From: Massilia sp. H-1
GTDB taxonomy: Bacteria > Pseudomonadota > Gammaproteobacteria > Burkholderiales > Burkholderiaceae_D
DNA: 64,000 nt
Reading direction: 5' to 3'
Assembly (NCBI GenBank): GCA_024703915.1
Contig: CP087969.1
Location: 4,588,001 to 4,652,000, forward strand
The first letter of the stretch is position 1, and every line of letters begins with the position of its first letter. Positions 19,701-34,696 of this stretch are shown in pieces. The notes under the pieces were generated by a model, which had not been told where the DNA came from, did no database searches, and saw only the letters and a list, made by a program, of their open reading frames with translations. A program made the translations under genes and the position numbers.

Positions 19701-20028
19701 CCGAGCGTCAGCCTGGCCGGGGCGCCGTGCGAAATCAGGTGCAGTGCGCTGACGTCCTGGCGGCCGCATGAGGGTGGCGGCGATCTGGTGCAAGCCATCC
19801 TGCTGACTGTCGAGAACGACCACTTCCATGTCGGCGGCCTGGGCCTAAGCAGCAGTGCGCGAGTAGTCGGCAATGCTGTCTTCGACAAACAGGATGGGCC
19901 GGTCGGGCGCGCGCGCCTGGGCGCTGGCGGCAAGACAAGAGAATAATAAGGCGGCGATGAGGAAGACAATCCAATTGATGTGTGACCAATCCCGGTGTGG
20001 TGCGCAGCGGCATCACTTGCTTGTCCAT
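10758..20028 (-). CDS. giant DUF4347 / cadherin-like / SdrD-B / DUF11 surface protein
   Basis: About 3,090 residues if the frame is restored. Order from the N terminus: signal peptide (start 20028, GGGGA upstream); DUF4347-type domain ~25-190 ([53 protein letters not shown]); a ~200-residue linker; 19 tandem ~99-residue cadherin-like beta-sandwich repeats; at least four SdrD-B-like Cna/prealbumin domains ([33 protein letters not shown]); and a DUF11-type domain ([18 protein letters not shown]). This is an adhesin or biofilm-type architecture. More than 25 frame breaks, most with GCCGGC-lesion form; in some repeats the lesion is in frame and gives FAVSTT. The C-terminal end is uncertain because of frame breaks. 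Probably one operon with the barrel gene downstream. Confidence 0.8.
13170..18850 (-). repeat. 19 tandem ~297-bp repeats (cadherin-like domains)
   Basis: Nineteen consecutive copies of a 294-300-bp unit inside the giant surface gene. Each encodes LS(L)[17 protein letters not shown], then [33 protein letters not shown] and [17 protein letters not shown]. Units from ~14.7 to 18.5 kb are almost identical, with two alternating variants (TVADATAS and TRSDANAS), a sign of recent amplification or gene conversion; units at both edges are more diverged. Copy number may be mis-assembled. The complementary strand shows a ladder of ~62-aa open frames, which are shadows. Confidence 0.9.
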
Positions 20029-28902: not shown

Positions 28903-28998
28903 GGCGTACTTCCGGTGATGGAGGTCGCCACCATTGTAGGTACGATAGCCAAAGCGCGGCCTTGAACCGCGCTCAAACTCGGCGCGTTTGCAACAGTC

Positions 28999-30142
28999 TC
29001 AGGGACTGCCGCCCGGTCCGTTGCTGCCGACCGCGCTGGCGGCCATGCCGAGCGGGGTCTTGCCTTGCCACACAACGTCATTGTCGACCGAGTACAGCTT
29101 GCACGGTTCATTGCTTTTCTTTTCGCAGGTGCTGATCGCGCGCTGATCGGGATCTTCGCCGTCTTCGGCCCAGCACCAGGCCCCGCTGGCAGAGACCGCG
29201 AAGGCGCGCGGCGTCATGCGCGCCAGGTATTCGCGGTAGGCGGCGCGTCCGCTTTCGGCCAGATAGGGAACGGCCGCGATATCGTCGATGCGGGCAAAAT
29301 TGGTGGGCGGCAGGGTCGGCGCGGCACCGACCGCGACCATTTCCGCGGTGGGCATGCCGATCTGGCGCAGGAACGGTTCGGCTTGCTTCCACCAGATCTT
29401 TTCACCGTCGCGGCTGGCAATCATGCCGTGCGAATCGCGCTTGAAGGCGCCGAATTCGACCAGCCGCGCCCGGCCGCCCTCGCGCACGAAGGCGGTGTGC
29501 ATGCGGCCGACCAGGTCGGGACCGAACAGCGAATCGTTGACGCCGTACATCCACAGGCTGGGCACCTTGTTGTGCGCGCCATAGCTGGCGAAGGCATTGA
29601 CCAGCGAGGCGCGCCAGTCGCAGCTGTTGCCATCGTCGCGCAGGCCGCCGGCTGAAGTTGATCAGGCCGCGCACGCCGGGCACCGCGCGTGCCGAGCGCC
29701 ATGGTGGCCAGGCCGCCATACGATTGGCCTAAGCAACCACGATGCGGTCGGCGTCGACCCATGTCTGTTCACGCGCAAATTGGATGGCTGACAACACGTC
29801 ATCGGCCTGGGCCTGGCCATTGGCTGTCATGTTGCAGCCGTGATTGGCGTAGGTGCCGGTCGAACTGGCGAAGCCCTGGCGCATCGGCACCATGACCGCG
29901 TAGCCGCGCTTGACGAAGGCGGTGGCCATGAATATGAAACGGTCGCGCGGCTGGAACTGCGGCTCGCCCGCTTCCTTGCCATGATTGATGATCAACAGCG
30001 GGAACGGTCCCTTGCCGTTCGGCCGGAACACGGTGGTTTGCAGGCGCGCGTTGCCATCTTCACCAGCGGGCACCATGATCACTTGCTCATTCAAGCGGAA
30101 GTCGACCGGCAGATCTTGTTCGACTGCCAAGGATGGCATCAT
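28999..30142 (-). CDS. secreted alpha/beta hydrolase (dienelactone-hydrolase-like)
   Basis: Alpha/beta-hydrolase of about 380 aa: LLIINHGKEAG, YAVMVPMRQGFASSTG, DRIVVAGQSYGGLATMAL (nucleophile Ser), SLWMYGVNDSLFG (acid region) and FKRDSHGMIAS (catalytic His). Two GCCGGC lesions interrupt it: 29730 (VVAGQSYGG) and ~29650 (NFAGGLRDD). I mark the ATG at 30142, but about 18 codons immediately upstream read in frame as a signal peptide (RTVFSIASVSLACLC), so the true start is probably a non-ATG codon, or a damaged ATG, near 30195. Substrate unknown; the cysteine-rich C-terminal ~80 residues (GAWCWAEDGED, STCEKKSNEPCKLY) are an addition beyond the hydrolase core. Confidence 0.82.
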
Positions 30143-31034: not shown

Positions 31035-31054
31035 TACTGTATATCCATGCAGTA
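31035..31054. promoter_or_regulatory. LexA (SOS) box upstream of the radical SAM gene
   Basis: TACTGTATATCCATGCAGTA matches the consensus TACTGTATATATATACAGTA at 17 of 20 positions, with both CTG/CAG half-sites perfect. It ends 16 bases before the GTG start at 31071 and 24 bases after the DTW stop, so bound LexA would block this gene. Its central ATG (31047) should not be used for translation. Confidence 0.85.
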
Positions 31055-31070
31055 TACGCAGGTGAACCCC

Positions 31071-32239
31071 GTGACCGATCCCAACGACCAATCCGAACAG
31101 CACGTCATGCTGCCGCCGCGGCCGCTGTCCGCGCAAAAAGGGCGGGGCGCCGTGTCCAATCTGCAAGGCCGGTACGAGGTCAATGCCCGCGAGGGGTTTG
31201 ACGACGGCTGGGCGCAGGAAGACGAGGCCCCCGCGCCCTTCAAGACGCAAGTGACGGACGAATTCGCCAAAACCATCCTCACGCGCAACGCCTCGCCGGA
31301 CATTCCCTTCAATGTCTCGCTCAATCCCTACCGCGGCTGCGAACACGGCTGCGTCTATTGTTTCCGCGCGGCCGACCCACAGCTACCTGGGCCTGTCGCC
31401 GGGGCTCGATTTCGAGAGCCGGCTGTTCTGCCAAGGTCAACGCGGCCGACCTGCTGCGGCAGGAGCTGGCCAAGCCGTCTTACCGGCCGGAACCTATCGC
31501 CGTCGGCGTGAACACGGATGCCTACCAGCCCTGCGAGCGCGAACGGCGCATCACGCGGCGCGTGCTGGAGGTGCTGCACGACTGCGAGCACCCGGTCGCG
31601 CTCATTTCCAAGTCCTCGCTGATCGAGCGCGACATCGATCTGATCGCGCCCATGGCGGCCAAGCAGCAAGCCATTGCCGCCATCACGCTGACCACGCTCG
31701 ACCCGGCCATCTCACGCACGCTCGAGCCGCGCGCCGCGGCCCCTGCGCGCAGGCTGCGCACGATCCGCACCCTGACCGATGCTTAGCATCCCCGTGCGCG
31801 TGAGCGTGGCGCCCATCATTCCTTTCATCACCGAACCGGAACTCGAAAAAGTGCTCGAAGCGGCGCGCGCGGCTTGGCTGCTGTTTCCGCCCACTACGTG
31901 GTGCTGCGCTTGCCATGGGAAGTCAATCCCTTGTTCCAGCAATGGCTGGAGGCCCACTTCCCGGAGCGCGCCCAGCGCGTGATGAACCGCGTGCGCGACA
32001 TGCGCGGCGGCAAGGACTACGACAGCGACTTCCAGCAAGCGCATGTCAGGCGAGGGGGTATGGGCCGATCTGATCCGCCAGCGCTTCGTCAAGGCGGTCG
32101 AACGCCTGGGCATGAATCTCACCAGCGGGCGCTTTGCCGCGCTCGATGCCTCGCGCTTCCGGCGGCCGACGGTGGTGCCATGCCTACCAAGGCCAAGCAA
32201 TGCGGCAATGCGACCGGCCAGCTCGATCTGTTTTCCTGA
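31071..32239 (+). CDS. PA0069-family radical SAM protein
   Basis: Radical SAM protein of about 385 aa related to spore photoproduct lyase-like proteins; biochemical role unknown. Cluster motif CEHGCVYCFAR (CX3CX2C) preceded by NVSLNPYRG, then GVNTDAYQPCER, ALISKSSLIERDIDL, RTLTDAGIPVRVSVAPIIP and LRLPWEVNPLFQQW. GTG at 31071 chosen because AGGTGA lies 5 bases upstream and the ATG at 31047 falls inside the LexA box. Breaks at ~31374, ~31432, 31786 (GCCGGC lesion, DAGIPVR), ~31870, ~32040 and ~32163. To my knowledge the Pseudomonas aeruginosa homologue PA0069 is in the SOS regulon, which fits the box here. Confidence 0.9.
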
Positions 32240-32330
32240 ATCCGGGCCTTGCGAAAAGTCAACGGCAGGCTTGTCTTGCCGCGCCGGATTGACGAAGCTC
32301 AAACTGTATAGACAAGATCCCCTTGCTGCA

Positions 32331-32358
32331 TTGACCCCTGTTTTCCCGATCCTATACT
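32331..32358 (+). promoter_or_regulatory. sigma70 promoter of the methionine-rich gene pair
   Basis: TTGACC, 16-base spacer, TATACT, about 55 bases before the first ATG. It lies in a noticeably less GC-rich stretch after the radical SAM gene. Confidence 0.6.
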
Positions 32359-32412
32359 GGCCTCTCTCTTCAATCTCGAAGGGAATTTACATCACTTACG
32401 ATAGGAAATCAC

Positions 32413-32643
32413 ATGACGATGCAATCGACGATGCCCATGCCTATGTCCATGCCCATGCCCATGTCCATGCCGGGAATGATGAACGGCATGCCCATGCAGG
32501 CAATGATGCCGATGATGATGGCGAGCATGAAGATGAAGATGGTAGTAAGCAAGACTGAATGCGAAATGGTCCCGGCCGCCGGGATGGACAAGGACATGTT
32601 CGCCAGCAGCTGCCAGATGCTGCAAATGATGATCGAGGCTTAA
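32413..32643 (+). CDS. methionine-rich small protein 1 (76 aa)
   Basis: Extraordinary composition: about one residue in three is Met, in MP/MS/MxxM patterns over residues 1-45 (MPMPMSMPMPMSMPGMM), followed by KTECEMVPAAGMDKDMFASSCQML. There is no signal peptide or membrane helix. The second half is clearly related to the next gene (C-M-x-P-x-x-G-M-x-x-x-M-F-x-x-S-C-x-x-L/M), so both are real and paralogous. GGAAA lies 5-10 bases before the ATG. Met/Cys-rich segments suggest soft-metal (Cu(I)/Ag(I)) binding or a redox sink; this is inference. No family recognised. Confidence 0.75.
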   Translation: MTMQSTMPMPMSMPMPMSMPGMMNGMPMQAMMPMMMASMKMKMVVSKTECEMVPAAGMDKDMFASSCQMLQMMIEA

Positions 32644-32645
32644 GC

Positions 32646-32932
32646 ATGCCGATCACCATGCAGTCGGGAAATATGTGCATGATGGCCGTGAGCGATCATG
32701 TCATGATGACGCCGCCCGTCATGATGCCGCCGATGGCCACCATGCCGTCCATGATGTGCCGGGTTCAGGTTGAACTGAAAAAGATGCCATGGTGTGCCAG
32801 ATGACGCCGGGCCAGGGGATGAACGCGGAAATGTTCACCGCGTCGTGCAAGTTGATGGAAAAAATGATGCAGATCGGCATGCCCATGATGATTGCGTGCA
32901 ATGGGTCGCCCGTCATGTGCTGTACGGCATAA
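32646..32932 (+). CDS. methionine/cysteine-rich small protein 2
   Basis: Second member of the pair, beginning two bases after the first gene. Read through one likely lost A in the A-run at ~32780, it encodes about 95 residues with ~25 Met and 6 Cys: ITMQSGNMCMMAVSDHVMM, then CQMTPGQGMNAEMFTASC, ending CNGSPVMCCTA. The CQM...SC block aligns with CEM...SC of protein 1. Without correction the frame runs to 32804. Function unknown; metal binding is the natural guess from composition. Confidence 0.68.
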
Positions 32933-33192
32933 ATGGCCGCTACCGGCCCGTGCGGTAAAGGTAGTTAAAAGAAGATAGCAGTACGATCGTTTCCATCGCC
33001 ATGCGACGCGCAGCGTCGCTGGCGTTGAACCTGCAAGTCCACCACATTCAGCGCAGCCACGCGCTTGTTTTCGGCCTAAGCATCTGGGTTTTCATCACGT
33101 GCCTCGCATCGGTCCACACCAATTCATACTAGACCTGTTTGCTCGCCACCAGAACAACTGAGTGGCGATAAGCTTATGCGCGGGCCCGGCTG
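32933..33192. other. 260-bp region without a recognisable gene
   Basis: Lies between the methionine-rich pair and the convergent gamma-glutamylcyclotransferase gene. It contains one lesion-type motif (CCTAAGC at ~33075), hinting that it may once have coded, but I could not build a protein with recognisable features on either strand. No clear terminator hairpin. Confidence 0.5.
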
Positions 33193-33754
33193 TTACAGCA
33201 GGCGCAGGTGTTTCTCGATGGTGAAGACATGCTCGTCGTCCTTGCCCAATTCTGCGCAGCGCGTGCGCCAGCTCGAACAGATAGTCGCGATTGTGGCCGC
33301 TCGGGCCGCTGGAACGGGCGATGTGCAGGGCGATGTCGAGTTCCGTCGCCGCGCCAAGGAAGGCCGCGTTGTCCTCGGTGGCGATGTAGACCAGGCCTTC
33401 TTCGCTGTCGCCATTGTCGAAGGTGATCTCGGTGGCCAGGCGCAGGTAGCCGTTCTTTTCGCGGTGGTCGAGGTGGGCGAAGACTTCGGGCGTGATCAGG
33501 TAGGCCATGCCATAGCATTCCGCACCCGGGTCCTGCACCAGCGTGGCCACGCGGCCCGGCGCTGTCTCGGTGCCGCGGTGGTCGTGCGAGCCTTGCCAGA
33601 AGCGGCGCGACCAGTTGCGTATGCTCGCCGCGCGCCGTTCGATGAAGGGGAAGTCGGCCTTGAAGATCAGCGAGCCGTAGCCGAACAGCCAGACGCTGTG
33701 ATGGCCGTCGAATTTATTCATCTGCTGATTGATGGCGATCGTGTTGTGGGACAT
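33193..33754 (-). CDS. gamma-glutamylcyclotransferase (ChaC-like)
   Basis: Cleaves gamma-glutamyl groups (probably of glutathione) to 5-oxoproline. VWLFGYGSLIFKADFPF holds the YGSL substrate loop, followed by RRFWQGSHDHRGTETAPGRV, GMAYLI and the HREKNGYLR helix with the catalytic Glu. Start MSHNT at 33754. The C-terminal part shifts at ~33255, where one GC is lost from CTGCGCGCAGAA; restoring it ends the protein with FTIEKHLRLL at 33193, about 187 aa. Downstream of, and nearly continuous with, the LysR gene. Confidence 0.88.
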
Positions 33755-33782
33755 GGGTGCCTCTGCCGGTATGCAGCGTCCA

Positions 33783-34696
33783 TTATAAAGGCGGGGAATG
33801 TTCCAGTCGTGGGCCTCCACGAACTTGAACAGATAGGCGATGAAGCTCTCCGCCATGGCGACAGCGAGCGGTTCTGGCGCCGGTACACGAAGAAGCGGCG
33901 CGTCAGTTCCGGCTCGTGCAGCTGGCGCATGTGCAGCTGGTGCAGGCGCACCAGCGGCTCCGCGTAGGGCAGGCAGACCGTCACGCCCAGGCCGGCGCTG
34001 ACCATCGCCAGCGCGGTCGTCATGAACGTCACTTCATTGGCCGGATTGAGCGAGACGTCGCGCAGGGAGCTGTGCATGTCGCTGAGCAGCCGTTCGGTAA
34101 AACTGGCCCTGCAGCGAAATGAAGGGATGGTCCGACAGATCGGACCAGGTCACGCGCTCGCGCTGCTCGAGCGGATGGGCGCGCGGGAACACCAGCACGA
34201 AGGGCATCTCGAACAGGACCGAAGCGTCGACCTGCGCGCTGGGTTCGCGCTCCGGGCCGACCGCCACGTCCACTTCGCCACTGAGCACGCGCGCCGTCAC
34301 GTTCTCGACCGCGCAATCGACCAGCCGCACCTGGATGTCCGGATGGGCTGCGCGGTAGCCGATGATCACTTCGGGCAGCAGCGTGCACGACATCAGCTGC
34401 GGCGCGGCGATCCGGACCACGCCTTTTTGAGCTGCGACTGGTTCGCGATGTCGAGCAGGGCGCCGTCCAGATCGTCGATCATCTTGGAAAACAGGGGGTA
34501 CAGCTCGCGTCCCACCTCGGTCAGGGCGATCTTGCGCGTGCTGCGGTCCACCACCCGGATCGAGAGCGTCTGTTCGAGCTCCTTGATCAGCCCCGACAGG
34601 GCAGACTGGGTCACGTGCATGTACTCGGCGGCGAGCGTGAAACTGCCGGTCCGGGCCAGCGCTACCAGCGCGCATCTGGCGTAAAGTGGGATTCAT
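33783..34696 (-). CDS. LysR-family transcriptional regulator
   Basis: N-terminal winged HTH (LRQMRALVALARTGSF, then YMHVTQSALSGLIKELEQ and RVVDRSTRKIALTEVG) and a type-2 periplasmic-binding effector domain (GVVRIAAPQLMSCTLLP, VDVAVGPERE, MVSAGLGVTVCLPYAEPL). About 304 aa. Breaks at ~34660, ~34430, ~34105 and ~33860. The end is uncertain: the nominal frame runs on into the cyclotransferase gene, and a one-base correction gives TAA at 33783. Divergent from the VOC/FAH/MaiA operon, which it most likely controls from the 88-bp spacer. Confidence 0.88.

Follow-up and report, generated by a model that had tools for sequence, protein, structure and literature searches.

The methionine-rich gene lies on the forward strand at positions 32413–32932 of the window, by which we mean the whole 64,000-nucleotide stretch of Massilia sp. 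H-1 DNA that was analysed, and it is present there in three fragments. The first fragment (32413–32643) encodes the Met-rich N-terminus and most of a first domain; it comprises 76 amino acids with a Met content of 36%, which confirms the composition given in an earlier sequence-only reading. Among the 370 open reading frames (ORFs) of at least 45 amino acids in the window, two reach 20% Met, and both are fragments of this gene. The first frame break (32638–32645, at GCTTAAGC) amounts to a net +2 relative to both intact relatives described below and creates a TAA codon. The second fragment (32646–32804) carries the end of domain 1, a Met/Pro linker and the start of domain 2, the second frame break (32778–32782) is a net −1 at a run of A, and the third fragment (32783–32932) contains most of domain 2 (C-x-M-x-P-x2-G ... 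SC ... CNGSPVMCC) and runs to the stop codon. The cysteine-containing motif noted earlier is indeed found twice, as CEMVPAAGMDKDMFASSC and CQMTPGQGMNAEMFTASC, its exact form being C-x-M-x-P-x-x-G-M-x-x-x-M-F-x-x-S-C, and the region of the second copy is covered by two overlapping frames, 32646–32804 and 32789–32932. These had been interpreted as a tandem pair of small genes. The same DNA, however, is one open frame in two genomes of the window's genus, G013 (168 amino acids) and G016 (170 amino acids), one of which is Massilia aquatica. Judged by these sequences, the second occurrence of the motif belongs to a domain that is repeated within one protein.

Convergent with the Met-rich gene, on the reverse strand at 32940–33060, is the remnant of a gene for a small basic protein with the motif N-V-x-D-L-x3-R-x2-R. 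It is divided between the ORFs 32940–33047 and 32965–33060 and is frame-broken by a net −2 relative to G013 and G016, in both of which it is intact. The aligned DNA of the window thus contains two frame breaks in the Met-rich gene within 520 bp and a third one next door, a pattern that would suit a true pseudogene. We nevertheless consider this explanation unlikely, as the genome of the window (G000) is one contig with a completeness of 48%, long GC3-biased open frames (900 nt or more) make up 27% of the window compared with 59–61% in three stretches of 20 kb from a one-contig genome of the same genus and 45–54% in the short loci of G016 and G013, and the dN/dS ratio of the two outer fragments against the relatives is 0.14–0.22. 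Because the assembly is 48% complete, the breaks are likely to be sequencing (base-calling) errors in an intact gene.

Genes split between frames are also found at 31047–32239 and elsewhere in the window, and the assembly seems to be rich in indels. The split gene at 31047–32239 resembles radical SAM genes and is presumably one of them, though two of its fragments had no Pfam match. Beyond the small basic-protein remnant, at 33098–33856 on the reverse strand, lies a gene for a ChaC-like gamma-glutamylcyclotransferase (Pfam E-value 8.9e-48); glutathione turnover would fit a use of sulfur, this being a single case. ARAGORN reports a 94-nt tRNA-Gln (ctg) on the reverse strand at 28947–29040, which overlaps long ORFs and is probably spurious. 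The interval 31500–33500 had no Rfam match at the gathering score, and at E ≤ 0.5 five matches were obtained on 15 loci, every one under the gathering score.

An AGGA ribosome-binding site (32403–32406, forward strand) precedes the ATG and is aligned in G013 and G016, in agreement with the sequence-only reading. The promoter proposed there was a sigma-70-like TTGACC-N16-TATACT at 32331–32358 on the same strand. This sequence is present and its TATACT is aligned in all three genomes, but the promoter scan by itself is at chance level, with one occurrence found and 0.8 expected in shuffled sequences. On the 5' side of the promoter, an imperfect inverted repeat, ATTGACGAAGCTCAAA (32288–32303), is a candidate operator. 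It is seen as an aligned block ATTGAC..A.CTCAA in the window, G013 and G016; the exact dyad ATTGA-N6-TCAAT is found in G013 and G016 only.

The intact protein begins with the Met-rich N-terminus, which is followed by domain 1, the Met/Pro linker and domain 2. The domain is about 60 amino acids long and is present in two copies in both the G013 and G016 proteins, which are 70% identical to each other. Five domain units align at seven invariant columns, C, P, G, C, M, G and P. Three Cys residues per domain are mostly conserved; in G564 and G569 one of them has moved by two residues and another is swapped for Met. The gammaproteobacterial and Massilia proteins contain two domains, and the myxobacterial and alphaproteobacterial ones a single domain after Met/Gly/Pro/Asn repeats, which vary in length among myxobacterial members. 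Nine full-length members contain 28–50% Met, 55–86 Met and Cys residues each, no more than one His and no Trp; the Met content of the 30 myxobacterial members is 38–50%, and the tabulated members have 3–14 Cys per protein. The absence of a signal peptide, also claimed earlier, was borne out by inspection of the N-termini and by 12 sequences in which no stretch of 19 amino acids holds more than nine L/I/V/F/A/W residues, Met uncounted.

AlphaFold2 predicts a strand-strand-helix-strand-strand arrangement for the G013 domain (three sequences in the alignment, mean pLDDT of 79, pTM of 0.55) and two strands and a helix in each half of the full 168-residue G013 protein (two sequences, mean pLDDT of 61). 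Confidence is low at residues 1–27 and 83–102, and the Met-packed stretches are probably disordered according to this model. A Foldseek comparison of the predicted domain with the PDB had no match at E ≤ 0.001, and a further fold comparison, with a best Z-score of 2.9, identifies no known fold without demonstrating a novel one. A search of the PDB by sequence returned two weak matches with E-values of 0.096 and 0.75, which we take as chance.

Tails of this kind might bind hydrophobic peptides, the protein being a chaperone with a Met-rich groove or a phase-separating scaffold of condensates. The Met-rich grooves of STI1 domains, as described in PMC13083928, provide a precedent, and both the variable length of the Met/Pro/Gly/Asn repeats and the low confidence of the modelled tails agree with such a role. 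On the other hand, the predicted domain has no clear PDB match, which is weak evidence either way, and apart from the regulator discussed below, neighbour clusters are shared by at most 4 of 13 myxobacterial loci. We regard a groove or condensate function as very improbable.

The family was opened by a distant relative in Pyxidicoccus, found in a scan of genome contigs, which is 38% identical over residues 109–164. A profile of the domain then located family members in 30 of 195 Myxococcota genomes, in 8 of 398 sampled Pseudomonadota genomes (the window's own among them), in 34 of the 248 genomes that represent one family within the window's class, gammaproteobacterial in the GTDB scheme, and in 2 of 289 genomes in the class of G805. 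The latter two and G896, which comes from the Pseudomonadota sample, are probably alphaproteobacteria, an assignment that rests on the description 'same phylum'. In the window's own family the gene is carried by three of 392 genomes, all of them in the window's genus (3 of 17). The relatives carry the paired-Cys motif, for which the sequence-only reading had suggested a search for homologues.

Substitution patterns place the family under purifying selection in the pairs tested, with dN/dS ratios of 0.24 between G013 and G016 and 0.13–0.48 in five gammaproteobacterial pairs in addition to those of the outer window fragments. Low-complexity drift is ruled out by these ratios and by a Met content that stands apart among the ORFs of the window, and a chance motif by the profile-matching domains of relatives from other lineages. 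Phage or plasmid origin was also rejected, as no relative was found in viral contigs or PLSDB plasmids. Neither Pfam nor NCBIfam gave a match at the cut-off for the window pieces or the G013, G016 and Pyxidicoccus proteins, which upholds the remark that no family with this motif was known, and PADLOC gave none at E ≤ 0.1 for three proteins. We found no description of the Met-rich family among the open-licence papers covered. Sequence comparison shows a genuine protein family that the searched libraries do not describe.

Outside Massilia the gene has a recurrent partner. A gene for an XRE-cupin regulator lies tail-to-tail with the Met-rich gene within 1.5 kb in 26 of 30 myxobacterial loci (median gap of about 14 bp) and in 24 of 30 gammaproteobacterial loci (about 84 bp), the gaps being measured from tblastn ends. 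It is convergent in all three alphaproteobacterial loci, two by tabulation and G1379 by separate inspection. The tabulation covers 30 of the 34 gammaproteobacterial genomes; outside it are G1216, G1222, G1226 and G1202, the last of which was seen separately and has the XRE-cupin. Six gammaproteobacterial loci have none within 1.5 kb: in G1167 and G1063 it is within 5 kb of the Met-rich gene, in G1070, G1039 and G755 (whose locus, L062, is at a contig end) a 93–94% identical XRE-cupin is encoded elsewhere in the genome, and in G1157 there is a partial match about 10 kb off. Of the four myxobacterial loci without an adjoining XRE-cupin, that of G477 has the gene some 5 kb off, and in G564, G569 and G450 the copy is on another contig only. 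Some genomes, such as G449, carry a second copy elsewhere.

The association is one-sided in Myxococcota, since the XRE subfamily is found in all 30 Met-positive genomes and also in 45 of the 165 in which no Met-rich gene was detected (75 of 195 in total). Twenty myxobacterial XRE loci not adjoining a detected Met-rich gene showed neither a Met-rich ORF nor the small gene described below, in a script run without a positive control; one of these loci belongs to G450, whose Met-rich gene is on another contig. In Massilia no XRE-cupin gene adjoins the locus, G013 and G016 have only 34–36% identical ones elsewhere, and G000 has none at E ≤ 1e-20.

All three partner regulators that were scanned have HTH_3 and Cupin_2 domains above the Pfam cut-off. 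Two XRE-cupins of the module share 35% and 37% identity with E. coli SutR over 162–169 aligned positions, and for two the best solved match is the Vibrio cholerae protein 1Y9Q. Few XRE-cupin structures have been solved, and the top rank of 1Y9Q therefore carries little information on the ligand. SutR was named for sulfur utilization, as the title of Yamamoto 2015 cited in PMC8464067 has it; the cupin pocket of 1Y9Q holds D-methionine, and XRE-cupin factors in Pseudomonas are inhibitors of neighbouring genes, both according to PMC7901475. The partner regulator resembles SutR (YdcN) and 1Y9Q in its XRE helix-turn-helix and cupin, and differs from them in its position next to a Met-rich gene and, in many loci, a gene for a small basic protein. 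On the analogy of SutR and 1Y9Q, it may bind methionine or control sulfur genes.

The small protein, of about 50 amino acids with V-I-D-L-x3-R-x2-R near the N-terminus, is encoded 5' of the XRE gene in many loci (for example, L045:6365–6553, L075:7000–7161, L079:7861–8037 and L012:6512–6763). A regular expression detected it in 20 of 30 myxobacterial and 19 of 29 gammaproteobacterial loci, where it missed diverged copies and some genes were cut by the 1.5-kb flank. The myxobacterial version has a Trp/Val tail, and four versions had no Pfam match. Massilia keeps this gene convergent with the Met-rich gene: among 17 genomes of the genus, G013 and G016 alone have it intact and the window has it broken, and these are the same genomes that contain the Met-rich gene.

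Conserved DNA elements also precede the Met-rich gene in the other lineages. The gammaproteobacterial loci L063–L105 share a block with an imperfect inverted repeat ending in ATATCCAT, about 205–270 bp upstream, and ATATCCA is found 214–225 bp before the gene start in 28 of 29 loci. In 26 of 30 myxobacterial loci (L015–L044), GGAGGAAA occurs 96–122 bp before the start, in some of them within a CCTCCG-N6-CGGAGG-like dyad, and a similar dyad is present upstream of the alphaproteobacterial G1379 gene. A search for dyads across lineages revealed no common operator. A longer form of the gammaproteobacterial block, TTAGATNNNNTATTCACTNNRGTTNTTTGC, was written from the alignment of the Met-gene upstream regions, and its presence there is therefore by construction. 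When three mismatches were allowed, all 8 gammaproteobacterial genomes searched, which belong to two of the three genera, contained it a single time, at the Met-rich gene only; the reversed pattern gave no occurrences. One occurrence per genome points to a regulatory site for one gene. ATATCCA precedes the small-gene/XRE operon in 1 of 19 gammaproteobacterial loci and GGAGGAAA does so in 0 of 20 myxobacterial ones. The element is thus not usual there, and the XRE-cupin is only a putative binder of it.

Several genes of sulfur metabolism were found in the wider neighbourhood. Matches above the NCBIfam cut-off include SfnB in G1105, G1191 and G1379, SsuE in G1105, SsuA in G1115, SsuD in G1145 and NtaA/DmoA monooxygenases in the G1191 and G896 loci, and MetN-, MetQ-, cystine-ABC- and sulfurtransferase-like neighbours matched below the cut-off. 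Sulfur markers are present in 13 of 34 proteobacterial Met-gene loci compared with 4 of 40 random windows from 11 Met-positive genomes, the markers having been chosen post hoc from 8 of the test loci. In loci fetched afterwards the count was 2 of 12 (one of the two being syntenic with a locus already seen), which is close to the 4 of 40 background. None of 14 myxobacterial and neither of two Massilia loci had such a marker, and none was found at 20001–46000 of the window. When loci were grouped post hoc by a shared upstream or downstream flank and the groups merged by hand, about 12 neighbourhoods resulted for the lineages other than Massilia and Myxococcota. A sulfur marker is present in 8 of these, with the L165 group resting on matches of 32–37%. 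This neighbourhood is suggestive of a sulfur-related function, a lead and not proof.

The sequence-only reading had proposed a cytosolic sponge for Cu(I) or Ag(I). In a buffer for these or other soft metals, the thioethers of the Met tails would collect the metal and the domain cysteines would hold it. The three mostly conserved Cys per domain, the Cys-to-Met swap in G564 and G569, which retains soft ligands, and the absence of a signal peptide, from which reduced cysteines would follow, are all in line with this function. Yet E. coli CopA, CueR, CusABCFRS and CueO as queries (MsrB was in the same set) identified no convincing copper gene in 48 loci: none of 2 Massilia and 14 myxobacterial loci was flagged, and the 4 flagged among 32 gammaproteobacterial and alphaproteobacterial loci comprise three 30%-identity CusR matches (L077, L112 and L114) and one MsrB, compared with 5 of 40 control windows, CopA and CusA matches included. 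Furthermore, the nine full-length members have 0–1 His, and we know of no copper regulator of the SutR-like XRE-cupin type. The metal sponge has gained no positive support in this way, and we consider a soft-metal buffer rather unlikely.

The other function suggested earlier was a methionine-oxidation buffer. Here the Met residues would take the damage by hypochlorite or peroxide and methionine sulfoxide reductases would restore them. In G805, an MsrB gene above the NCBIfam cut-off (L079:5191–5589) follows a cystine-type ABC transporter and is situated 1.2 kb upstream of the Met-rich gene, and the extreme Met content suits a sacrificial sink. Such a sink would be the cytosolic counterpart of MrpX, a periplasmic Met-rich peptide that goes with YedYZ (Melnyk 2015, as cited in PMC5748585 and PMC4623255). 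However, MsrB is near 1 of the 48 loci and MsrA near none, and the conserved cysteines would presumably be oxidised as well. MrpX is likewise a very Met-rich small protein and a proposed chemical sink; being periplasmic and associated with sigF/nrsF and yedYZ, it differs from the present family, which has no signal peptide, folded Cys domains by prediction and an XRE-cupin neighbour. In the lack of a signal peptide the family is unlike periplasmic Met-rich proteins in general. We rate an oxidant sink as quite unlikely.

We favour the explanation that the Met-rich protein is a regulated cytosolic reserve or sink of sulfur in the form of Met and Cys, to which we assign a probability of roughly 0.35. 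One cytosolic protein, of two domains and 168–170 amino acids in the intact relatives, would consist of Met-packed stretches joining small hairpin-helix-hairpin domains with conserved Cys, Pro and Gly. Cells with plentiful sulfur amino acids would make it, storing the sulfur of methionine and cysteine, and would consume it by proteolysis under scarcity. Except in Massilia, the adjoining SutR-like XRE-cupin would control how much is made, acting as a repressor through the upstream element and sensing methionine or a related metabolite. Points against a reserve include the marker count in the loci fetched afterwards, the absence of an adjoining XRE-cupin in Massilia and the wider spread of the XRE subfamily in Myxococcota. 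In addition, a folded domain that is conserved and has C, P and G as invariant residues exceeds the needs of a passive store. A narrower version, which we put forward tentatively and hold to be doubtful, is that of a methionine bank, in which a cytosolic protein of up to half Met is made and consumed under a methionine-sensing XRE-cupin repressor with the assistance of the small basic protein.

Known stores offer partial parallels. Met-rich 2S albumins are secretory proteins of plants. With those of seeds (HaSSA, named in PMC7387578) we draw a likeness only in the idea of a methionine-dense reserve and claim no sequence relation. The copper storage protein Csp3, as presented in PMC5171941, is similarly cytosolic and rich in sulfur ligands, but is a four-helix bundle that directs 18–19 Cys into its core, whereas the present family is dominated by Met, has 3–14 Cys and is predicted to form a beta-beta-helix-beta-beta domain rather than a four-helix bundle.

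Proteins with 40–50% Met are costly, yet they are conserved in several bacterial lineages, which demands a function outside those of the families that we found. The novelty consists in the family and its gene module, and it would shrink if a metal or oxidant role were proved; a metal or oxidant sink would still be a new, cytosolic kind. A sulfur reserve would be, to our knowledge, the first protein-based one in bacteria. If the methionine bank is real, its role in sulfur economy would match that of cyanophycin for nitrogen, and it would operate in Massilia as well as in myxobacteria, alphaproteobacteria and gammaproteobacteria.
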